DNA of 64,000 nt, taken from the NCBI GenBank assembly GCA_002733665.1, contig NVWM01000027.1:1-64000 (forward strand). The letters run 5' to 3'. The notes under the pieces were generated by a model. That model saw only the letters and a program-made list of their open reading frames with translations. It did no database searches and was not told the DNA's origin. Below, in pieces: positions 15,312 through 60,119 of this stretch. This DNA comes from Lutibacter sp. GTDB lineage: Bacteria; Bacteroidota; Bacteroidia; Flavobacteriales; Flavobacteriaceae. Made by a program: the position numbers and the translations under genes. Each line of letters begins with the position of its first letter. The stretch's first letter is position 1.

Positions 15312-16034
15312 TTGTTTTTCCACAAGCATCCATATGAGCCATTTATCAAAAACGATACAGAGAAACTAATCGTTGGCACTTTACCTCCTCCTCGATTTAC
15401 CACAGGAGAATTGATAAAACAAGATGTTGATTTTTGCTATGGTAGTTATTACAATTCACTTTGGCTGTATATTAATAAAATTCATGATTTAGATTTAGAT
15501 TTTGAAAATACAAATAGAGCCATTGAACAACGAAAAAACTTTTTAATAAAACATAAAATTGGTGTTTGTGACATTGTGGATTCTTGTAAAAGAGATAAAA
15601 TTGATGCTTCAGATCTTGGGATGCAAAATATTCAATTACGCAACTTAATTGGTTATCTAAACAAGTTCCCAACCATCAACACATTACTTTTTACTGGCGG
15701 GAATTCTAAAAATGGTCCTGAATATTTTTTCAGAAAACACTTAAAAGAGCACAATTTGAAATTGGAAGTAGTTTCAAATACAGTTCCAAGAATACATCAG
15801 TTTAAAATACCACGTCACCCTGAACTTGTTTCAGGGTCGCATAAAAAGGGTGAGATTCCGAAACAAGTTTGGAATGACGATTTCCGAATCATAAAAACTG
15901 TTTCTTTAACTTCACCTTCTGGTTCGGCAAATAGAGCCATTGGATCTATGGAATTATATAAAAATATGAAGAATGAAAACTCGAAGTTTACAACTTTTGA
16001 TTTCAGAGTGTTACAATACAGAAATTGGTTTTAA
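15312..16034 (+). CDS. Uracil-DNA-glycosylase-family protein with an in-frame palindromic insertion
   Basis: 240 residues from a TTG start directly after the cupin stop (MFFHKHPYEPFI). The LIVGTLPPPRFTTG segment and the C-terminal LTSPSGSANRAIGS loop are typical of a UDG/Mug-superfamily group common in Bacteroidota, expected to excise damaged bases. GVCDIVDSCKRDKIDASD is also conserved in that group. Between HQFKI and RIIKTVSL lie about 22 extra residues, including RHPELVSGS and EIPKQVWND. They are the translation of the repeat at 15813-15879. The insertion lies just before the catalytic-loop strand, so its effect on activity is an open question. The frame is intact on both sides. Confidence 0.85.
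   Translation: MFFHKHPYEPFIKNDTEKLIVGTLPPPRFTTGELIKQDVDFCYGSYYNSLWLYINKIHDLDLDFENTNRAIEQRKNFLIKHKIGVCDIVDSCKRDKIDASDLGMQNIQLRNLIGYLNKFPTINTLLFTGGNSKNGPEYFFRKHLKEHNLKLEVVSNTVPRIHQFKIPRHPELVSGSHKKGEIPKQVWNDDFRIIKTVSLTSPSGSANRAIGSMELYKNMKNENSKFTTFDFRVLQYRNWF
15813..15879. repeat. 67-bp palindromic element (GAACTTGTTTC type) inside the glycosylase-family gene
   Basis: Runs from CGTCACCCTGAACTTGTTTC to CCGAAACAAG plus TTTGGAATGACG, with the two arms complementary around an unpaired centre. The element inside trpF (24865-24931) has exactly the same length, orientation and reading phase relative to its host gene. The trpA-trpB gap holds a third copy. Confidence 0.88.
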
Positions 16035-16047
16035 AAATATTACCAAC

Positions 16048-16072
16048 TGTCATTCCTAGAAAGGCAGGGACT
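16048..16072. repeat. Half copy of the CCTGC-type repeat
   Basis: TGTCATTCCTAGAAAGGCAG followed by GGACT, a degenerate half of the element at 1238-1315, lying 14 bp after the glycosylase-family stop codon. Confidence 0.6.
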
Positions 16073-16160
16073 ATTTATTTGTTTATTTAATTTTTTAAGC
16101 CACAATATTCAACAAAACATAAAAATATTTTTTTATATACCCCTTAAACAACAATGTATC

Positions 16161-18062
16161 TTAATTAATACTCAAAATTTCTAGTTTAGATTCTAGTTTA
16201 TCTAATCTATTAGATAGTTCATTCATATCATTAAGTTTTAATTCTATTTCTGTAATTCTTTCTTTCTGTTCTTTTAATATTTCTACCCATTCATTTGTTT
16301 TTAAGCCTACCGAAACATTTATTAAACTAGCTTTATTTCCATTAGATCCTGACCATGCTTTCCCAATTATTGACTTTAAATCTTTCAACTTTATATCTTT
16401 TGCAGAAACTGCTTTTGCATACCCATCATTATAACCTGATGCAACTATATAATCTCCAATTACTACATTACCCAATGTTAAAACAGGAACTTGCCCCATA
16501 AATCCAACCTTTTCAAAATCTTCTTTTCTATCTTCGTTAGGCATATTTCCTAATACAATGGGTGCTAGCGAAATTGACATTACTTGATCTGCATTTGAAG
16601 TATTTCTTGATATTTTCCCTCCTTTTACACCTACAACTTCTCCAAACATATATTTTTCTTCTGGATTTTCTTTTTCTAACCACTCAGCATAATCTGCCCC
16701 TTTTGACCCATAGATTACTCCTTGGTTCATAGCTACTTGTTTTGCTGAAAGAATTAATGGAACTAAGGCTATTTTCCAAGGGGTAGTTGGTAAAAATCCT
16801 GGGGTCCCGTTACGCATTCCCCAACCTATCATTGCGCCTATATCATCTCCTGCATCAGATGCCGCTGTAGGGTTCCAAAAACCATCAAAATCGAATGTAG
16901 GAAATGAACCTACGTTTAGATTAGGAAATGAGCCTGAATAAAAACTTAAAGATGGAGTAGATCCATCGTCCCAATCGTAATCTAAATCTGTCCAATCTAT
17001 ACTCAAAGATGGTGTAGATCCGTCATTCCAATTGACCGAAGGAGTTACTCCACCTGTTAACGAAGGTAATGCTCCCCCTGATATTACATTATCAAAATCA
17101 AAAACATCTATCAAATTTGCGAAATCTGGCACAGGAAATGACTCCCATAAGTCTCCTGCAAGCAAATCGTAACTTTCTACTCTTCCTGCAACATAATCTC
17201 CATTTCCATAAAACGTTATAAACCTATTTTTATAACCTAGCTTATTACTTGTATTGCCATGAATTCTAATCGCAATACCATCTGCTTTATTTCCATTTAA
17301 TGTATTTGTATTTTCAAAAAGTGCTATGTGGTTTGCTCCTGAACCTCCGCCAATATCATCCCCGCCTTTTACCACTAAATTTGCTAAAGTTGTATTGCCC
17401 TCTATACTCAAATCTCCTTTTAAAGTAGTATTACCTTCAACATCTAAATTTCCATCTAATAAAGAATTCCCTTCTACTGATAAGCCACTATTCATTAATG
17501 TTTCTCCTTCAATAACTAGATCATTTACAAAAGTTACAAGCCCGCCTACATTTAATGTTCCTGATAAATTTGATGGCTTTTGATTACTTACATTAAAATC
17601 ACCATTAAGAGTTGTTAACCCATCTACAGTTAAATTTCCTGTTGCCAAGATATTTCTATGAAAAGCAAATGGAGTAAACGTGAGTTTTTGTTCTCCCAAA
17701 GCAGTAAAAACACCACCTCCACTAAGGTCAATTTCAACTTTTAAATTTTTAGGAGTTCCATCCCATTCTATTTCGTTAAAACTATTCCCTGTAGGATTAC
17801 CTTCCCCTATAAAAAGGTTAATCATTCCAAAAGAATCGGTTGTAGTTGCTTGTGTTTCTTGATAGTCATTCGAACCATTATCGTTTATAATTGTAAAACG
17901 AATAACAATGGCTTTATTTGGATAAATATTACCCGAAATATCAACTCCAGGCAATTCTATTGTTTCTGGATTTAAAATTACGGCTTGATAACTTAATCCA
18001 TCAGTTTGAGAATATACTGTTGTGGATAAAAAAAATACGATTAAAAAATAAATTTTTTTCAT
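16161..18062 (-). CDS. Exported fibre-like surface protein with Peptidase_G2-like C-terminal region
   Basis: 633 residues with signal MKKIYFLIVFFLSTTVYSQ. An N-terminal domain (about 20-135, starting LSYQAVILNPET) of a type common in Bacteroidota surface proteins is followed by short repeats (about 138-225; LTVDGLTTLNGDF, LDVEGNTTLKGDL, LSIEGNTTLANL) suggestive of a beta-helical or fibrous stalk. A Gly/Ser/Pro/Asp-rich segment (about 325-390) with repeats of DDGSTPSLS follows. Near residue 445, VIYGSKGADYAEWLE resembles the start of Peptidase_G2 domains of phage tail/appendage proteins. The C-terminus is a short coiled coil (KERITEIELKLNDMNELSNR). It is the last gene of a cluster with a barrel protein and a T9SS cargo protein. 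Adhesion or a surface fibre is inference. Confidence 0.75.
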   Translation of the reverse strand: MKKIYFLIVFFLSTTVYSQTDGLSYQAVILNPETIELPGVDISGNIYPNKAIVIRFTIINDNGSNDYQETQATTTDSFGMINLFIGEGNPTGNSFNEIEWDGTPKNLKVEIDLSGGGVFTALGEQKLTFTPFAFHRNILATGNLTVDGLTTLNGDFNVSNQKPSNLSGTLNVGGLVTFVNDLVIEGETLMNSGLSVEGNSLLDGNLDVEGNTTLKGDLSIEGNTTLANLVVKGGDDIGGGSGANHIALFENTNTLNGNKADGIAIRIHGNTSNKLGYKNRFITFYGNGDYVAGRVESYDLLAGDLWESFPVPDFANLIDVFDFDNVISGGALPSLTGGVTPSVNWNDGSTPSLSIDWTDLDYDWDDGSTPSLSFYSGSFPNLNVGSFPTFDFDGFWNPTAASDAGDDIGAMIGWGMRNGTPGFLPTTPWKIALVPLILSAKQVAMNQGVIYGSKGADYAEWLEKENPEEKYMFGEVVGVKGGKISRNTSNADQVMSISLAPIVLGNMPNEDRKEDFEKVGFMGQVPVLTLGNVVIGDYIVASGYNDGYAKAVSAKDIKLKDLKSIIGKAWSGSNGNKASLINVSVGLKTNEWVEILKEQKERITEIELKLNDMNELSNRLDKLESKLEILSIN

Positions 18063-18069
18063 GATTGAT

Positions 18070-18744
18070 TTATTTGCTGATTAATTTTCTTTGATTCTCT
18101 TTTTTAGATTTCTTAAGGTTTATAATTAATCCAAATCCAATATCATGAGATTTGAATTTAATTCTTGCCTGATTACTGTGTGACGAATCATTTTTAAGTT
18201 GTTTACTCTTTCCGTATTTATATTGCAAAGAAATGTTTACAATATCTGATAATGGATACTCTAAAACGGCTCCTCCACGAAAAAAAATATTTGATTTATC
18301 AAAATCTTCTTCACCAACCAAATCATAAACATTATTATTTACTATTTGTGTTCCTTGCAACAAAAATTCAACTGAAGTTGTTCCTCTTAAGTAAAATGTC
18401 ATTTTCTTTATTTTTAACAGCTTAATATCTACGCCTGCTAAAAAACCTAAATATGTTGTCTCCCATTCATAATAATTATTTACAGCATTATCGCTTCCTA
18501 TAGTGCCATAGCTATTCATGCTTGTCCCCACTAAAACGTGTAAAAAATCTTTTATGGCATTTTTTCTAAACCCTAAAAATATATAATTTTGTGTTGTTCC
18601 TTGTAGGTTTTCTAACTTAGTTCCTTGTGAGTCTTTAAACTCAAAAGACGTCATTGATTTACCTGATTCAAGTATAATTTGTTGTGCATTCACTTGAATA
18701 TTCAGAAAAGAAAATAAGACTAATAAACTGTAAAAATATTTCAT
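18070..18744 (-). CDS. Small outer-membrane beta-barrel protein
   Basis: 224 residues with signal peptide MKYFYSLLVLFSFLNIQVNA. The rest shows alternating amphipathic strands (IFFRGGAVLEYPLSDIVNIS, LQYKYGKSK) and a penultimate strand KSHDIGFGLIINL, as in eight- to ten-stranded outer-membrane barrels. There are seven bases to the fibre-like gene and six to the T9SS protein upstream, so translation is probably coupled. It may anchor or help export the neighbours; no family name can be given with confidence. Confidence 0.7.
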   Translation of the reverse strand: MKYFYSLLVLFSFLNIQVNAQQIILESGKSMTSFEFKDSQGTKLENLQGTTQNYIFLGFRKNAIKDFLHVLVGTSMNSYGTIGSDNAVNNYYEWETTYLGFLAGVDIKLLKIKKMTFYLRGTTSVEFLLQGTQIVNNNVYDLVGEEDFDKSNIFFRGGAVLEYPLSDIVNISLQYKYGKSKQLKNDSSHSNQARIKFKSHDIGFGLIINLKKSKKENQRKLISK

Positions 18745-18750
18745 AATTAT

Positions 18751-19254
18751 TTATTCTTTAATTAATCGAACTGAGAATTTTTTATTTTCTGAAGTGACAT
18801 TTAAAAAGTAAATTCCTGTTGATAAGGATGACATATTAACTTGTTTACTCCTAGAAGGTCCATAATTTTTATTTGAAATCAATTTACCCGTAATATCAAA
18901 AAGTGTAACTTCAAATGATGTTTTTAAAACATCATTAAATAAGATAGTTATATGATTTCTTACTGGATTTGGATATGCGACAACGTTTAAATCATTAATT
19001 ACATCAGTAATTACCTCTATTTTAATTGGCGGTTGCTGAAATCCCTGTCTAATACCATACGAATCTTTAACAAAAGTCCCTATAACACTATTTTGCCCTA
19101 CACTTTGACTGATATAAAAATTATTATCATTAACAGTTAATTCAATGGAACTCCCTGAAACTCCAACTGTAGATCTCTTTAAGTTCTGTGCTATTATATT
19201 AATACTAACTAAACACAAAATAGCGCATACAAAACTAAACTTATTAACTTTCAT
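18751..19254 (-). CDS. Small T9SS cargo protein with type A sorting domain
   Basis: 167 residues. An N-terminal signal peptide (MKVNKFSFVCAILCLVSINIIAQ) is followed by a short beta-rich module (FYISQSVGQNSVIGTF, IRQGFQQPP), and then a type A T9SS sorting domain from about residue 92 (VVAYPNPVRNHITI, LFDITGKLI, LSTGIYFLNV, ending KFSVRLIKE). The sorting domain directs export across the outer membrane and surface attachment. The QSVGQ and RQGFQQP module is recurrent in Bacteroidota next to fibre-like proteins, which matches the arrangement here. Its small size suggests a structural or capping role rather than an enzyme. Confidence 0.82.
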   Translation of the reverse strand: MKVNKFSFVCAILCLVSINIIAQNLKRSTVGVSGSSIELTVNDNNFYISQSVGQNSVIGTFVKDSYGIRQGFQQPPIKIEVITDVINDLNVVAYPNPVRNHITILFNDVLKTSFEVTLFDITGKLISNKNYGPSRSKQVNMSSLSTGIYFLNVTSENKKFSVRLIKE

Positions 19255-19361
19255 AATTAATGGGCTTTAAAATAATACCATAAAATATATTACACCAAAA
19301 ATATTAAATAATAATAGATAAAACAATAGGTAAGAGTACTTAACTTACTAAGGTTCACACC

Positions 19362-19988
19362 TTAATAAGCATTTTTATTTTGATAAACCCATTTAATTAA
19401 ACTATTATTTTCGGGTTTTAATTGGAGTTTTTTACAGATGTTATATCGATGAGAATGAATTGTTTTAACCGAAACAAATAACATTTCAGCAATTTTTTTC
19501 GATGTTTTCCCAGTAGCAATTAACTTGAGAATATTTACTTCGGATTTTGTGAATTCTGGATGTTTTTTTTGATTATTAGCACGGTATTTATCTATCGAAT
19601 TACTATAAAATTTTTCGTTATTTAAGACAGCGATTATACATTTGGTAATTTCATCAACAGAAAATTCTTTTAGTAAGTAGCCATAAATATCTAAATCTTG
19701 AATTTCATTAAAAAATATTTTTTCTTTATGAAGTGTCAAAATTATTATTTTTGTTTTATTGGTAGTCAATCGCAATTTTCGTACAACTTCAATCCCATCT
19801 AAAAAAGGCATTTCAATGTCTAAAATAGCAATATCCGGACTTTTGTGTGCTATTTTCTGGAGTGCGTCTGCACCGTTATTAACTGTGGTAATTTCGGCTC
19901 TAGGAAACTCATTTTTAATAACAGCAACAATACCTTCCAACAAAATCGGATGATCATCTGCCACAACAATTGTAAATTCTTTTTGCAT
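19362..19988 (-). CDS. LuxR/NarL-family response regulator
   Basis: 208 residues. The receiver domain (1-120) has the acidic pair Asp11/Asp12, phospho-acceptor Asp57 (AILDIEMPF), Thr at ILTLH and Lys at LLKEF. A C-terminal helix-turn-helix follows (about 143-205; TKSEVNILKLIATGKTSKKI, then AEMLFVSVKTIHSHRYNICK). It activates or represses target promoters after phosphorylation. The start codon immediately follows the histidine-kinase stop, so the two form a two-component system. The downstream T9SS, barrel and fibre genes on the same strand are the obvious candidate targets, though this is inference from position. Confidence 0.92.
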   Translation of the reverse strand: MQKEFTIVVADDHPILLEGIVAVIKNEFPRAEITTVNNGADALQKIAHKSPDIAILDIEMPFLDGIEVVRKLRLTTNKTKIIILTLHKEKIFFNEIQDLDIYGYLLKEFSVDEITKCIIAVLNNEKFYSNSIDKYRANNQKKHPEFTKSEVNILKLIATGKTSKKIAEMLFVSVKTIHSHRYNICKKLQLKPENNSLIKWVYQNKNAY

Positions 19989-21773
19989 TTACTTATATAA
20001 AGTGATTTTAATTTTCGTCCCTTTTAGAAGTCCAGTATCAAACTCTATTTTACCTTTTAAATAATCAACTCTTTCAATTAATGATTGCAAACCTAAAGTT
20101 TTAAATTTAGTTTTTGCTTTTTCTAATCTAAATCCTTTACCATTATCTTGAACAGTTAAAACTATAACATCTTCATTATTCACTACTGAAATTTTGGATG
20201 CACTAGCCTCACTATGCTTAATAATATTATTTATACATTCTTGAATAATTCTATACAAATAAATTTCTTCTTCTTTTTTCAAAGACTTGTCAATATTTTG
20301 AACATCTTCAGAAAAGAAAATACCAGTAACATCATTAACTTCATTTACCATATTAATTATGGCTTTGGTAATTCCAACTTTTTCTAATTCTACAGGGTGA
20401 AGATTTCGAGATAACGCACGTATATTCTCTATTGTTTTATCGATCAATTTAGGTGCTTTTTCAACATCTATTTTTACTGAATGCTTTATTAATAATAAAT
20501 CTTGACCAATACCATCATGCAATTCTTTTGCGATGCTTTTTCGTTCATTTTCTTGTGCAACTATTAACTGATGTGCAAATTTTTGCTGCATTACCAACTT
20601 TTTTTGGGCAAATGATTTTGAACGAAAAGCAACAAACAAGCCAAAAACAAATAGTAAACCAAGCCCTCCAAATAATAGCCATTGTGTCTTTATCTTGCTT
20701 ACGGCATCTAATAGTTTTATCTCGTTTTGCTGTTCTATAATTTGAGTATCTCTTTTTTCGGTTTCGTAAAGTGTTTGATAATAACTCAAACCTCGTGCTT
20801 TTTTAAGTCCAGTAATAGAATCTTTTATTGTAGTATAATTTTTATAATATTGATATGCTTTTTCATCATTACCTAAAGTTTCGTACACTTTAGCCAAAAA
20901 CTGAGATGCTTGTTGTAAACCATCAAATTGTTTAGTTTCTGATTTATATTTAAAAAAATCTATCCCCCTTTTTAAAGCTAGATTGTATTCTTTTTTCGCA
21001 AATGAAAATCGCATATATGCTTCTTTATAAAAAGAAATAGAATTTCCTGGCGATTTTTTTCGTGGTTCTTTTTCAAGTAATTCAATATATGTTTTAGCAT
21101 TTTCTATGTCGTTAATTTCAGAATATGCAATTACCATAGCAGACAAATACACTGGTTTATAATAGGCTTTATATTTAGATTTTTCAATATTTTCAAGGGC
21201 TAATTTAATGAAAGGCACACGTTCACTTAATCTATCTCTATTTCTTAACTCTAAGGAATAATTAAAATAAATTTGAGATAAAAACAAATAATGTTCTTCT
21301 TTTTTTGCAAGTTCAATTGCTTCCTTTCGTTCTCTTTCAGCTTCTTCATAAAATCCGTTTTCCGAATACAAACTAATCATAACGTTCTTTACATTAATAA
21401 TAGAATTATTACTTTTAGATTCTTTGAAAAATGGAATTGACTTTTGTAAATTTTCAGAAGATTTACTTAATTTTCCTTGAGAGTAAAACACCATACCTAA
21501 GCCCATGTAAATTTCTCCAATTGCTTCTATATCGGTAGTCTTTACAGCATGCTTCAATGCTTCCTCATAAAATAACAAGGATTCATCATATTTAGCCATA
21601 TGAAAATGAATCAAGCCTCCTGCTTTGTAAAAGTTTGATAACCTTCTAGGTTTTTTGACCTTTAGGATGTGATGCTTTTTAAAATCATCAAAAATGCTTT
21701 TTGAAGTATCTAAATCGCCTTTAACTCCCGAATAATAATACATTCTATTAACCACATGGTGCTGCAACATCAA
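19989..21773 (-). CDS. TPR-containing sensor histidine kinase, main part (5' end shifted out of frame)
   Basis: Up to 594 residues. TPR-like repeats occupy about 1-330 (LIHFHMAKYDESLLFYEEAL, IYMGLGMVFYSQGKLSKSSE). A transmembrane helix (WLLFGGLGLLFVFGLFVAF, about 362-380), a HisKA_3 dimerisation domain with phospho-His in AKELHDGIGQD (about 412) and a HATPase_c domain (NNIIKHSEAS, VQDNGKGFRLE) follow. The family autophosphorylates and passes phosphate to NarL-type regulators such as the one encoded next. The signal peptide and first TPR residues are on a separate frame at 21748-21999. Removing one C from the GCACCATG near 21755 would join the two into one normal protein. Without that, this part has no export signal and should misfold or be inactive. 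Confidence 0.85.
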   Translation of the reverse strand: MMLQHHVVNRMYYYSGVKGDLDTSKSIFDDFKKHHILKVKKPRRLSNFYKAGGLIHFHMAKYDESLLFYEEALKHAVKTTDIEAIGEIYMGLGMVFYSQGKLSKSSENLQKSIPFFKESKSNNSIINVKNVMISLYSENGFYEEAERERKEAIELAKKEEHYLFLSQIYFNYSLELRNRDRLSERVPFIKLALENIEKSKYKAYYKPVYLSAMVIAYSEINDIENAKTYIELLEKEPRKKSPGNSISFYKEAYMRFSFAKKEYNLALKRGIDFFKYKSETKQFDGLQQASQFLAKVYETLGNDEKAYQYYKNYTTIKDSITGLKKARGLSYYQTLYETEKRDTQIIEQQNEIKLLDAVSKIKTQWLLFGGLGLLFVFGLFVAFRSKSFAQKKLVMQQKFAHQLIVAQENERKSIAKELHDGIGQDLLLIKHSVKIDVEKAPKLIDKTIENIRALSRNLHPVELEKVGITKAIINMVNEVNDVTGIFFSEDVQNIDKSLKKEEEIYLYRIIQECINNIIKHSEASASKISVVNNEDVIVLTVQDNGKGFRLEKAKTKFKTLGLQSLIERVDYLKGKIEFDTGLLKGTKIKITLYK

Positions 21774-21999
21774 CGGTATCTTGCGCTATAGCATAAGCAA
21801 TAGTAACTTTTGTAATTGAATCAAAATTATATCCTTGCTGTCTCCAAGTAATAGTAGCTAAACTATCTAACAACTTAATACGTTCCTTACTTTTTGAATT
21901 TGATATCTTTTGCTCTAATTCCTTTATTATGTCCTTATCAATTTGTGCATTCAATGAAATGTTAAAGACAATAAAAATAAATAGTAGTGTTTTTTTCAT
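21748..21999 (-). pseudogene. 5' fragment of the TPR sensor histidine kinase (signal peptide and first repeat)
   Basis: 83 residues: signal peptide MKKTLLFIFIVFNISLNAQ and the start of the sensor region (KSKERIKLLDSLATITWRQQ). The frame ends at DTVDVAAPCG and a TAA. The continuation of the sensor (HVVNRMYYYSGVKGDLDTSK) is in the next frame and overlaps it by 26 bases. This is the pattern of a single-base insertion in one original gene. A programmed frameshift or a base-calling error remain possible. Confidence 0.7.
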
Positions 22000-22103
22000 A
22001 AAAAATTAAATCACATTGAGCAAAAAATCACCCCAATTAATTCTTAAATATATAAAATAAATTTTACCTAAAATAGAATGATTGGGTTTATTACTTTTGC
22101 AAA

Positions 22104-22412
22104 ATGACTTTAAAGTTTTTCTCACATTACGGCTTACACTTTATTTTTCCAGCAATCATTGCTTTTATTTTCTTTAGGAAACAATGGTTAAAAGTGTATG
22201 TTATTTTTATTGTTACAATGCTTGTAGATTTAGATCACTTATTAGCAAACCCAATTTTTGACCCAAATAGATGTAGTATCAATTTTCACCCTCTTCACTC
22301 CTATTTTGCTATTGGAGTATACGCTTTAGGAACTTTTTTTAAACCAACTCGAATTGTTGCAATTGGTTTGTTACTGCATATACTTGCTGATGCTGTGGAT
22401 TGTTTATTTTAA
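22104..22412 (+). CDS. DUF6122-like small integral membrane protein
   Basis: 102 residues with three or four hydrophobic segments (GLHFIFPAIIAFIFF, VYVIFIVTMLVDLDHLL, SYFAIGVYALGTFF, IVAIGLLLHILADAVDCL). The conserved His and Asp positions (HYGLHF, DLDHLLANP, HPLHSY, HILAD) resemble membrane-bound metal-dependent hydrolase-like families, but no activity is known; flavobacterial homologues are filed as DUF6122. A TACTTTTG box (22092-22099) ends five bases before the ATG, so the transcript might be leaderless. No TTG box accompanies it. The 3' end overlaps trpA, convergent, by nine bases. Confidence 0.72.
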   Translation: MTLKFFSHYGLHFIFPAIIAFIFFRKQWLKVYVIFIVTMLVDLDHLLANPIFDPNRCSINFHPLHSYFAIGVYALGTFFKPTRIVAIGLLLHILADAVDCLF

Positions 22413-23171
22413 AATTCCATCAGTAAACTCATCAATTTTCTCAACACCATTTGACTCTAAAAACTTAATAAAAGCAGAACCAATAATAGCACCATTCACA
22501 TACTTGCATACAGTATCGAAAGTTGTTTTATTTGAGATTCCAAAACCTACAATTAACGCACTTTTTAAATTCATCGCTTTGATACGTTCAAAATAGGTGA
22601 TTTGATCTTGAGAAATCTCTCCTTTTGCTCCAGTTATTGAAGCAGAAGCAACTACATAAATAAACGTTTCTGTCAATGCATCAATCTTTCTAATACGCTC
22701 TTCTGAAGTTTGAGGAGTGATTAAAAACACATTCGAAATACCATATTTTGCAAACAACTTTTTATAATGATTCTCATACTCAAGCATTGGTAAGTCTGGT
22801 AAAATCACAGTTTCAATTCCGCAAGCAACACATTGCTCACAAAAACGCTCTTCACCATATTTCAACACTTGATTTAGATAACCCATCAATACTAAAGGAG
22901 TTTTAACTTCGTCTTTAACAGCTATTAATTGGTCAAAAATAATATCGAGATTAATACCATTATTCAAAGCAACCTCACTACTATGTTGGATTGTTGGGCC
23001 ATCAGCCAAAGGATCAGAATAAGGCAGTCCTACTTCAATAAAATCAATACCGTTTACTTCTAAACTTTTGATTATAGAAACAGTATCATTCAATTGTGGA
23101 AATCCAGCAGTAAAAAATACTGAACACAGATTTTTATCTTTATTTTTAAATAATTCTTTTAATGAGTTCAT
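22404..23171 (-). CDS. trpA: Tryptophan synthase alpha subunit
   Basis: 255 residues. Cleaves indole-3-glycerol phosphate to indole and glyceraldehyde 3-phosphate, passing indole to TrpB. The catalytic Glu in FIEVGLPYSDPLADGPTIQ and the catalytic Asp region LPDLPMLEY are present. The phosphate-binding loop region (VGFGISNKTTF, GAIIGSAFIKF) is also present. It is the last gene of the trp operon, 86 bp after trpB, with a palindromic element in the gap. No terminator was found downstream; its end overlaps the DUF6122-like gene. Confidence 0.97.
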   Translation of the reverse strand: MNSLKELFKNKDKNLCSVFFTAGFPQLNDTVSIIKSLEVNGIDFIEVGLPYSDPLADGPTIQHSSEVALNNGINLDIIFDQLIAVKDEVKTPLVLMGYLNQVLKYGEERFCEQCVACGIETVILPDLPMLEYENHYKKLFAKYGISNVFLITPQTSEERIRKIDALTETFIYVVASASITGAKGEISQDQITYFERIKAMNLKSALIVGFGISNKTTFDTVCKYVNGAIIGSAFIKFLESNGVEKIDEFTDGILK

Positions 23172-23188
23172 GCCAATTTTATTTATTA

Positions 23189-23250
23189 GTCATTCCGAAC
23201 TTGTTTCGGAATCCCATCCTTATGAGACCCTGAAACAAGTTCAGGGTGAC
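23189..23250. repeat. Palindromic element (GAACTTGTTTC type) in the trpA-trpB gap
   Basis: From GTCATTCCGAACTTGTTTCG to CCTGAAACAAGTTCAGGGTG and AC. It is three bases shorter than the in-gene copies at 15813-15879 and 24865-24931 but otherwise of the same type and built from the same two arms. Confidence 0.88.
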
Positions 23251-23257
23251 GTAAATT

Positions 23258-24442
23258 TTATTTCAAATTCTTAATATAAGTTTCTAAATCTTTATCTCCT
23301 CTTCCTGACAAATTAACCACAACAACCTGATTTTTCTTAAAATCAAGCTTTGGTAGAACAGCCAAAGCATGAGCTGATTCCAATGCAGGAATAATTCCTT
23401 CTATTCTTGTCAATTCATAAGCCGCATCCAAGGCTTCTTGATCTGTTGCATTCATAAATACTGCTCGTTTACTTTCGTTTAAAAACGCATGTAAAGGCCC
23501 TATTCCAGGATAATCAAGTCCAGCAGATAATGAGTAAGGTTCTATTACTTGGCCATATTCATCTTGCATTAATATTGTTTTACTTCCGTGTAAGACACCT
23601 ACTTCTCCCAAAACAGAAGTCGCGGCACTTTCTCCACTATAAACTCCTAATCCTGCTGCTTCTACAGCAATTAATTCGACATCTTCATCATCTAAAAAAT
23701 GATAAAATGCTCCAGCTGCATTTGAACCTCCACCAACACAAGCAATGACAGAATCTGGTTTTTCTTGTCCTGTTTGTTCTAATAATTGCGCTCTAATTTC
23801 TTTACTAATCACAGATTGCAATCTCGCTACCATATCAGGATATGGATGAGGACCAACTACAGAACCTATCAAATAATAAGTATCTTCTGGATTCCCAATC
23901 CAATCACGAATTGCTTCATTAGTTGCATCTTTCAACGTTTTACTTCCACTTATTGCTGGAACCACTTTTGCTCCAAGCATTTTCATTCTCGCAACATTTG
24001 GCGCTTGTCTTTTTATATCAACTTCACCCATAAAAACAACACACTCTAGATTCATTAGCGCACAAACTGTTGCTGTAGCAACGCCATGTTGTCCAGCGCC
24101 AGTTTCGGCAATGATGCGTTTTTTTCCTAAATGTTTGGCGATTAATATTTGTCCAATTGTATTGTTAACTTTATGCGCTCCTGTATGATTTAAATCTTCT
24201 CTTTTAAGATAGATATGTGCTCCATATTTCTCTGACAATCTTTTTGCCAAATACAATGGTGTAGGGCGACCAACATAATCTTTTAATAAGTATTTGAACT
24301 CTTTTTGGAACTCTTCAGATTCCATAATTTTCAAATAATTATCTTCCAATTCTTTTACATTTGGATATAACAATTCTGGAATAAAAGCACCTCCAAACTG
24401 CCCGTAGTATCCATTTTTATCTACTTGAAATTTTGATTTCAT
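23258..24442 (-). CDS. trpB: Tryptophan synthase beta subunit
   Basis: 394 residues, the usual length. A pyridoxal-phosphate enzyme that condenses indole with serine. The PLP lysine is in [29 protein letters not shown] and the phosphate-binding glycine loop [15 protein letters not shown] are present, as is the C-terminal [13 protein letters not shown]. The N-terminus ([20 protein letters not shown]) is the classical TrpB1 type, which forms the alpha2beta2 complex with TrpA. It follows trpF in the operon, separated by a palindromic element. Confidence 0.98.
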
Positions 24443-24460
24443 TTCTTTACATTGATTTTT

Positions 24461-24516
24461 GTCCGTTCGAGCGGAGTCGAGAACTTAATAACCTCTCGAC
24501 TCCGCTCGAGGAGACA
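24461..24516. repeat. Palindromic element (CGAGCGGAGTCG type) in the trpB-trpF gap
   Basis: GTCCGTTCGAGCGGAGTCGA and its near-complement CTCGACTCCGCTCGAGGAGA about ten bases apart make a long hairpin. It is the same type as the elements at 57967-58047 and in metH (527-623). Confidence 0.88.
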
Positions 24517-24517
24517 C

Positions 24518-25204
24518 TCATTTATTTAATTCTTTTAAAAAAAACTTAAGCCTTTCTATATTTTTAACTGATGGCGCATCTTCAAATCCACTATTCAAAT
24601 CTATACCTATACATTGTTTAGATTCCTGCCTTCTCAGGAATGACAAAACGGCTTCAACATCATCTTTATTTATTCCTCCACTTAATAAAAAAGGAGTTTG
24701 ACCTTTATATTCTTTTAAAATAGACCAATCGTATTTCAACCCATTTCCACCGTAATCTTTTCCTTTGGTATCAAATAGGAATAAATCACAAGTCGATTCA
24801 TAATCTTGAGTTTGCTTAAAATCAAAACTTTCATCAACTGCAAAAACTTTGATAATTTCTAATTCGTCATTCCGAACTTGTTTCGGAATCTCATCACTCA
24901 TATGAGATGCTGAAATAAATTCCGCATGACGTAGTCTCAAATCCTCACAAAACTCTGAAGTTTCATTCCCATGCAATTGAACCACGTCCAATTTATATTT
25001 TGAAATTTTACGAACTATTTCTTCTTCTGTTTCATTTACAAATACACCTACTTTTTTAATTGACGAAGGAATTTCTACTTGTGGAAAATCAGCAACAAAT
25101 CGTTTTGATTTGTCATAGAAAATAAAGCCAATATAATCTGGAGTTAGACCAACTAACTCAGTTATATTTTCGCTATCGCGCATTCCACACACTTTGATTT
25201 TCAT
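24518..25204 (-). CDS. trpF: Phosphoribosylanthranilate isomerase with two in-frame repeat insertions
   Basis: 228 residues, longer than the usual 200-210. Isomerises phosphoribosylanthranilate in the tryptophan pathway. The catalytic Cys is in KVCGMRD (residue 6) and the catalytic Asp in FLFDTKGKDYGGNG. Substrate loops VVQLHGNE, LLSGGIN and DLNSGFED are present. After FCEDLR come about 23 extra residues (RHAEFISAS, DEIPKQVRND), the translation of the repeat at 24865-24931, before the strand IIKVFAV. A second stretch, FLRRQES, near residue 190 is the translation of the half element at 24621-24645. Both fall between core secondary-structure elements, so the barrel may still fold. The start overlaps the trpC stop by one base, indicating translational coupling. 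Confidence 0.95.
   Translation of the reverse strand: MKIKVCGMRDSENITELVGLTPDYIGFIFYDKSKRFVADFPQVEIPSSIKKVGVFVNETEEEIVRKISKYKLDVVQLHGNETSEFCEDLRLRHAEFISASHMSDEIPKQVRNDELEIIKVFAVDESFDFKQTQDYESTCDLFLFDTKGKDYGGNGLKYDWSILKEYKGQTPFLLSGGINKDDVEAVLSFLRRQESKQCIGIDLNSGFEDAPSVKNIERLKFFLKELNK
24621..24645. repeat. Half copy of the CCTGC-type repeat inside trpF
   Basis: GATTCCTGCCTTCTCAGGAA followed by TGACA, matching the right half of the 1238-1315 element. On the coding strand it reads as SFLRRQES within TrpF. Confidence 0.8.
24865..24931. repeat. 67-bp palindromic element (GAACTTGTTTC type) inside trpF
   Basis: From CGTCATTCCGAACTTGTTTC to AAATTCCGCATGACG-like end. Same length, orientation and translated phase as the copy in the glycosylase-family gene: RHAEFISAS here versus RHPELVSGS there, and IPKQVRND versus IPKQVWND. 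Confidence 0.9.
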
Positions 25205-25997: not shown

Positions 25998-26064
25998 TGT
26001 CATTCCTGTGAAAGCAGGAACCTATTTTTTATTTTCTGGATTCCGTATCAAGTACGGAATGACA
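25998..26064. repeat. Composite palindromic element in the trpC-trpD gap
   Basis: TGTCATTCCTGTGAAAGCAG opens it (CCTGC-type arm) and GGATTCCGTATCAAGTACGG then AATGACA closes it (TTCCGTA..TACGGAA hairpin). The outer ends are the shared TGTCATT/AATGACA, but the inner hairpins belong to two types. Confidence 0.8.
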
Positions 26065-51496: not shown

Positions 51497-51512
51497 AATT
51501 GACTTAAAATAG

Positions 51513-51574
51513 TGTCATTCTGAATGAAATGAAGAATCTTTATTTGAGATTTTTCGACTACGCTCAAAATGACA
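51513..51574. repeat. Interspersed repeat (GTCATTCTGAATGAAATG type)
   Basis: TGTCATTCTGAATGAAATGA at one end and TTTTTCGACTACGCTCAAAA then TGACA at the other. The same 5' half and nearly the same 3' half recur at 60033-60119. The 3' half carries a CGACT-CGCTC core related to the metH-type element. Confidence 0.85.
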
Positions 51575-57966: not shown

Positions 57967-58047
57967 TGTCCGTTCGAGCGCAGTCGAGAACTACTTCAAC
58001 AGTTAGCAATTTTAAATATTAAAAAAGGTCTCGACTGCGCTCGACCA
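57967..58047. repeat. Palindromic element (CGAGCGCAGTCG type) upstream of gyrB
   Basis: TGTCCGTTCGAGCGCAGTCG with AGAAC at one end and GGTCTCGACTGCGCTCGACC at the other; the two arms are complementary and 35 bases apart. It ends 24 bp before the gyrB ATG. Confidence 0.88.
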
Positions 58048-58068
58048 GATAGTATAACTTATAAATAA

Positions 58069-60012
<1,944 letters not shown>

Positions 60013-60032
60013 AAATAAATAAGTCTGAAAAG

Positions 60033-60119
60033 TGTCATTCTGAATGAAATGAAGAATCTCTAATAATCAAATTATTAGTTTACCCTAAAAAAGATTTTTC
60101 GACTCCGCTCAAAATGACA
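60033..60119. repeat. Interspersed repeat (GTCATTCTGAATGAAATG type) after gyrB
   Basis: Same 5' half as the copy at 51513-51574 (26 or more identical bases starting TGTCATTCTGAATGAAATGA), a different AT-rich middle, and the end TTTTTCGACTCCGCTCAAAA then TGACA. Confidence 0.88.

Follow-up and report, generated by a model that had tools for sequence, protein, structure and literature searches.

Unrelated families of CGTC-tagged REPs occupy the same few coding sites in flavobacterial enzymes, which look like reusable docking sites

Introduction

REPs tagged with CGTC form a superfamily that, in the account of Di Nocera, De Gregorio and Rocco (2013; PMC3733652), includes the Rickettsia elements RPE-4 and RPE-6 and has Bacteroidetes among its hosts. 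The same account describes some REPs that lie within other palindromes, for example CGTC-1 dimers of H. neapolitanus, a precedent for palindrome insertion. In Rickettsia, inserts occupy shared loci in orthologs and in some cases belong to different RPE groups; the authors who described this favoured a common origin and called hotspots 'still not negligible' (PMC3767692). For another class of REPs, TnpAREP is described as cutting single-stranded REPs, at CT in S. maltophilia and, in Marinomonas, at CT and CA, the tag steering which of the two is used (PMC8266576). Tobes and Pareja (2006; PMC1525189) reported REPs as insertion hotspots for IS elements. The REPs of two Flavobacterium species are listed in PMC12306157, a listing in which in-gene copies are not treated. 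The open-access literature searched yielded no paper on the peptide HPELVSGS and, on in-frame palindromes in flavobacteria or nested REPs, nothing beyond the works cited here.

Here we analyze an element of this known kind, a CGTC-tagged REP dimer and thus a tiny non-autonomous mobile palindrome, in a Lutibacter genome. The window is the whole stretch of 64,000 nucleotides that was analyzed. The element had been likened to the Rickettsia RPEs from the letters alone; that likeness in kind is sound, since PMC3733652 puts RPE-4 and RPE-6 among the CGTC-REPs, and it rests on this family assignment, not on sequence comparison.

Results

The two in-frame copies are located at 15813-15879 on the forward strand (peptide RHPELVSGSHKKGEIPKQVWND) and at 24865-24931 on the reverse strand (peptide RHAEFISASHMSDEIPKQVRND). 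Both are head-to-head CGTC-REP dimers of 67 bp (1 mod 3) from a family that we call A. In both hosts the CGT of the tag is a codon, and the phase is identical. The original prediction had placed two such copies in frame and in one phase, and the sequence and its ORFs confirmed the positions and the reading. The intergenic copy that it named is also real and slightly wider (23188-23251, 64 bp); this copy is a head-to-head family A dimer in the gap between trpA and trpB. The family A hairpin, ATTCTGAA-CTTGT-TTCAGAAT, has an 8-bp stem and a 5-nt loop and starts with CGTC. A CGTC or TGTC tag was present in the family A copies inspected in this genome, with CGTC in most of them; the dimer census demanded a GTC tag and is not an independent test of it. 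All five families (A, B, C, E and F) have a 5' [C/T]GTC tag; their labels and their cores were defined in this analysis.

Between positions 23188 and 26024 the window holds REPs of three families (A, E, and F) in three gaps of the trp operon (trpA/B, trpB/F, and trpC/D) and in two places within trpF. The second REP of trpF belongs to family E (24620-24645, reverse strand, peptide SFLRRQES) and is 96% identical to a copy at 1290-1315. A head-to-head family F dimer with the core TCGAGCGGAGTCGA occupies the intergenic positions 24460-24516 between trpF and trpB, and a family E REP is found at 25998-26024 between trpC and trpD. Other dispersed palindromic repeats of the window are at 1239-1315, 57969-58049, 51508-51542, and 60028-60062 (E dimer, F dimer, GTCATTCTGAATGAAATGAAGAATC). 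In the congener G113, 12 family A matches fell within 7.4 kb of its trpF region.

The two hosts encode unrelated proteins, as had been claimed, yet in many relatives both genes are within about 15 kb of each other. The first (15312-16034, forward strand, 240 aa) is a deoxyinosine/uracil-glycosylase-like ORF, and its assignment to the uracil-DNA-glycosylase family proved approximate: the best model was TIGR04274, deoxyinosine glycosylase, at 44.5 bits (cut-off 80), and no Pfam model matched. The second (24518-25204, reverse strand, 228 aa) is trpF, phosphoribosylanthranilate isomerase (PF00697, E = 2e-37). Comparison with relatives delimited true inserts in both. Many glycosylase relatives align on both sides of the dimer-encoded segment and skip query residues about 168-190. 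REP-free TrpF relatives tend to have shorter linkers between helix 4 and strand 5 (site 1): the linker had 9-63 residues with a REP core (median 26, n = 47) and 4-34 residues where no REP core was recognized (median 12, n = 120). The predicted TrpF structure (pLDDT 91.6, pTM 0.88) was mostly confident in the barrel. In this model the insert is placed between the barrel halves, that is, between the fourth and fifth strand-helix units. Its first part extends helix 4 (residues 83-100), residues 101-110 average about 60 pLDDT, and a separate loop (149-154) falls below 50. Insertion in frame into conserved genes, as in the Rickettsia RPEs, was found here, with an exposed position modelled for TrpF only.

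Such inserts extend beyond this genome: at the same residues, related genera have REPs either of the same family or of another. Extra residues in relatives without the repeat had been named as grounds for doubting the inserts. That objection applies in part: in some relatives the extra residues turned out to be other or decayed palindromes, although REP-free relatives with short linkers exist as well.

The inserts come from a dispersed palindrome. Genome-wide, GAACTTGTTTCRGRRTC (at most 2 mismatches) gave 33 matches in 2.7 Mb (37 contigs) versus 2 for the reversed control, a copy number above chance. Among 24 family A elements sampled in this genome, 8 were head-to-head dimers and 16 were single; no other pairing occurred. 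Most of them (19/24) were outside ORFs and five were inside, "inside" meaning well inside by the rule of this analysis, which agrees with the multi-copy, mostly intergenic and partly intragenic pattern of CGTC-REPs. In all five the CGT of the tag was a codon, with one phase throughout; the hosts are the glycosylase-like gene, trpF, bshC, and genes for a 3-hydroxyacyl-CoA dehydrogenase and a methylase-like protein. In congener G113, 8 of 35 family A elements (from 30 of 69 pattern matches plus two host loci) were inside ORFs, and the hosts include leucyl-, glutamyl- (GltX), and methionyl-tRNA synthetase (MetG), MnmE, BioF, and a FabF-like protein. Besides its in-frame REP pair, the congener's leucyl-tRNA synthetase (L294, 124-3018) matches DUF559 at residues 136-232.

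One claim failed, namely that the element is selected to carry one stop-free frame. No open frame on either strand was found in 5/6 dimers sampled outside ORFs in this genome, nor in 5/8 such dimers of G113; selection of that kind was rejected on this result. Most sampled dimers outside ORFs are closed in all frames, and the coding copies therefore appear to be survivors. A single A-type REP usually has three of its six frames open regardless of location. Units of families F and C are read in different frames depending on the gene, as SFRAQSRN or HLERSRE in TrpF and as SSAVETS in MetG and the glycosylase. The hydrophobic VILNLFQ frame was used by none of eight single in-gene family A copies (p = 0.04 if the three open frames are equal), but the set is small and partly non-independent and does not carry a claim of frame preference.

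Site sharing was quantified in 167 TrpF sequences, comprising 90 copies from family genomes (the window's own included) and 77 of 80 named loci, three of which had no protein. The 90 were mostly the top of the score list, and the genomes omitted mostly gave split matches that skip the insert. The named relatives were mostly Flavobacteriaceae (Lutibacter, Polaribacter, Tenacibaculum, Winogradskyella, and Flagellimonas/Allomuricauda) with a few other Bacteroidota. When the A, B, C, E, and F cores were sought over the full ORFs, 80 core matches were obtained. Site 1, a linker of 28 residues (89-116 in the window's own protein), took 65 of the 80, in 47/167 sequences, which given this sampling is not a population frequency. 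Another 11, all of family E, were at residues 192-196 (site 2; 11/167 sequences, the window's own included). The 4 matches outside sites 1 and 2 are at about chance level, as shuffled TrpF sets gave 7.3 matches per set over whole ORFs.

For each of the other genes the 30 best-scoring loci were used. All 11 core matches in the glycosylase were at the insert site (7/30 sequences; the ORF of L090 is broken near the site), and all 3 in BshC were at its site (29 ORFs, L404 having none by the motif used). In MetG, 10 of 16 matches were at one site (10/30 sequences). The six outside it comprise five at the 3-mismatch limit and one exact match, apparently upstream of the start; twenty more MetG stretches (L444-L463), chosen by length, are not part of this count. 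Binomial p values for site concentration ranged from 1e-5 to 6e-45 and are descriptive, as the sequences are related and the windows were picked after the inserts had been seen. At the MetG site the family A peptide is CHSELDSES and that of families F/C is NVTSSAVETS, with tags 2 nt apart. The glycosylase site holds A, F, and C by core match and, by eye, B-like units in some other genera. Across species, the same few spots in these enzymes hold palindromes of unrelated families, which gives them the look of reusable docking sites and not of one-off accidents.

At TrpF site 2 (24620-24645; residues 192-196), REP-bearing and most REP-free relatives are equal in length, which suggests replacement or conversion of native sequence by the palindrome and not an addition to it. 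Similarly, the REP form of BshC is merely about 2 residues longer. Because lengths are near-equal with and without the REP, simple insertion does not describe these two sites.

Tolerance alone could produce such concentration if REPs inserted at random everywhere and the sites were the few linkers in which in-frame inserts are neutral. The sites are linkers, the TrpF insert is modelled as a helix extension followed by a loop of about 60 pLDDT, and the TrpF linker varies from 4 to 34 residues without a recognized REP too. Yet TrpF matches outside the two sites (4) stayed at about chance level, and the presence of several families at one site would be improbable under random insertion alone. We consider plain tolerance a serious possibility at somewhat less than even odds, compatible with re-use of the sites.

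Turnover between close relatives was seen in the Flagellimonas/Allomuricauda group, where TrpF site 1 switches between A and F units along a trp-operon tree. The tree was built by a quick method from TrpA, B, C, D, and F without the insert columns; 41 of its 78 inner branches had support of at least 95 and 19/78 were under 80. With 81 taxa the site state required 19 changes (10 with the REP-bearing taxa alone), compared to a mean of 27.3 and a minimum of 24 in 50 label shuffles; states were set by core match and some are mislabelled, L188 as 'none' despite a split A unit and L242 by a weak F call. As 19 changes are fewer than in any shuffle, the site state is partly inherited. Within this group L196 (A) and L218 (F) are mutual best matches in all four trpF segments, with 88-90% identity up to the insert. 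L199 (A) and its F-bearing relative L226 share 73% identity in the 150-nt 5' flank versus 92% further upstream, and allele exchange is possible in this diverged stretch.

Allele exchange would more generally mean that old A and F versions of the trpF site moved between species by homologous recombination, and a recombination tract could leave a flank drop like that of L199/L226. Against the re-use reading, the codon offset of one family within a site is often constant across genera, which fits descent plus allele exchange. The pair L196/L218, however, shows no tract beyond the insert, A-bearing species are absent from the three best matches of every L196 segment, and the nested units described below are left unexplained. 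We rate allele exchange at less than even odds, on a par with plain tolerance, and it too is compatible with re-use.

A single ancient insertion per site, inherited and with the families diverging in place, is the explanation preferred for RPE-4/6/7 in PMC3767692, where orthologs with inserts at the same locus are described. It would account for one site, often with one codon offset, across genera, and for forms resembling decayed family A that were seen by eye in several genera. We nevertheless find it unlikely: families A, B, and C are also dispersed elsewhere in these genomes, related species carry near-perfect copies of different families at the site, and the pair L196/L218 weakens it further. 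Least probable is that the inserts were selected as helpful to the enzyme or its expression, for example as mRNA hairpins pacing translation at the TrpF half-barrel boundary; although site 1 falls at that boundary in the modelled barrel and the coding strand of several inserts is predicted to form strong hairpins, 120/167 TrpF sequences have no recognized REP there, and frames and families vary.

REPs were also found inside the hairpins of other REPs. For family C, 17 of 71 units were in the loop of a tagged hairpin in the same orientation when the unit was removed (permutation mean 3.4, maximum 8 in 100), and 0/71 were nested in the opposite orientation. The 71 units come from 70 loci of 82 pattern matches in five genomes, with L194 outside the set. 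No excess over permutation was present for A (1/175), F (2/66), or E (0/84 units). Because nesting is clear for family C only, it does not by itself explain the A/F turnover in trpF. The base before the nested family C unit was C in 13/17 and T in 4/17, and 13/17 junctions read C^TGTC. An empty/filled pair was recovered: a 23-nt family C unit sits exactly in the loop of an E-like hairpin in L194 and L195, and the hairpin is empty in L226. In the trpF of L129 a family F unit lies in frame inside a B hairpin. By eye, further nested or compound units are in frame in the trpF of L188 (a palindrome in the loop of A), L210, and L219 and L224 (stacked).

A RAYT was considered as the mobilizing enzyme and rejected, the correlation with PF01797 being weak and the scanned RAYT-like loci not being flanked by families A-F. 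Among 149 genomes, PF01797 was present in 25/48 with at least 10 REP-A matches versus 34/101 others (Fisher p = 0.048; Mann-Whitney p = 0.029 on the counts) and was absent from 23/48 of the REP-rich genomes. In 23 RAYT-like/Y1 loci (L031-L033, L264-L283; flanks of about 0.8 to 1.5 kb), a set that excluded the 30 best Y1 loci (L154-L183), no A-F core with at most 2 mismatches was detected save in L031, about 1.2 kb from the Y1 match. Against this, a CGTC-tagged palindrome from a different family lies in the weak Y1-like ORF of L033, and L267 holds a weak example.

Two of these loci have features of their own. In L031 (G000 contig 10, 215828-216169) the ORF with the Y1_Tnp match extends a methylase-like gene in a different frame and adjoins a methylase ORF with an in-frame REP. 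In L033 (1480-3282) the weak Y1-transposase-like ORF bears two SQGFTLSETLT palindromic repeats, of which one scored as a CGTC-tagged palindrome, and, by eye, continues into an apparent helicase.

Discussion

Beside the observed identity of the element, its in-frame inserts, the sharing of sites across genera, the different families in sister species, and the same-orientation nesting of family C, we set a reading to which we assign a probability of roughly 70%: CGTC-REP families insert, selection filters the insertions, and occupied sites are re-used by other REP families. Several [C/T]GTC-tagged families of such mobile palindromes are dispersed in these flavobacteria. Selection presumably filters the in-gene insertions, so that those remaining are open and in tolerant linkers. 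A site that holds a REP would tend toward re-use, with other families replacing, joining, or nesting into the resident, in part because REP hairpin loops may themselves be insertion targets. Founder hairpins would then be the cause of re-use, and the reaction may be a single-strand, hairpin-guided one of the IS200/IS605 type.

A stronger version is offered more cautiously, as a suggestion that we rate below even odds. Here a REP hairpin, after fixation within a gene or a spacer, would be a preferred, oriented landing pad for REPs of other families, a few linkers of essential enzymes would be rewritten repeatedly, with every new palindrome contributing a short peptide or exchanging one, and a single-strand enzyme would read the shared GTC tag. 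If REP loops are landing pads, non-coding palindromes would have a steady route in bacteria for adding peptide segments to specific linkers in essential enzymes, and the target rule would offer a way to look for the mobilizer of CGTC-REPs.

The question raised for Rickettsia, hotspot or diverged insert (PMC3767692), is decidable in Flavobacteriaceae, for which many genomes are available. The evidence from flavobacteria leans toward re-use of sites; its main rivals, allele exchange and plain tolerance, do not exclude it. As described in PMC3767692, RPE-4, RPE-6, and RPE-7 are frame-keeping inserts in solvent-exposed parts of proteins, like those found here, and the RPE motif ATGAC is the complement of the GTCAT of our elements. 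The present case differs from theirs in phylum and in that intact, distinct palindromes alternate between close species.

The REPs of RAYT/TnpAREP systems (PMC8266576, PMC6006769) and REPINs (PMC3116915) are tagged hairpins as well; the tag described for the former is GTAG/GTGG (PMC8266576, PMC6006769), whereas it is CGTC/TGTC here. The C^TGTC nested junctions (13/17) recall the CT cleavage by TnpAREP, though across the 23 loci no RAYT-like gene was flanked by families A-F save for the core in L031. Compared with the hotspots of PMC1525189, where the insert is an IS, the insert here is another REP.

The closest likeness is to the CGTC-REPs of PMC3733652. As described there, these have a 5' CGTC/TGTC tag, stems of 8-9 bp, a loop of 4-5 nt, and a predominance of head-to-head dimers; they include intragenic copies, among them copies in repair and tRNA-synthetase genes, and that account gives them no transposase association. 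All of this holds for the elements studied here, the lack of transposase association within the 23 loci scanned. The flavobacterial case goes beyond what is described in that account in two respects: different families replace one another at a single coding site, and REPs lie nested in another REP's loop.
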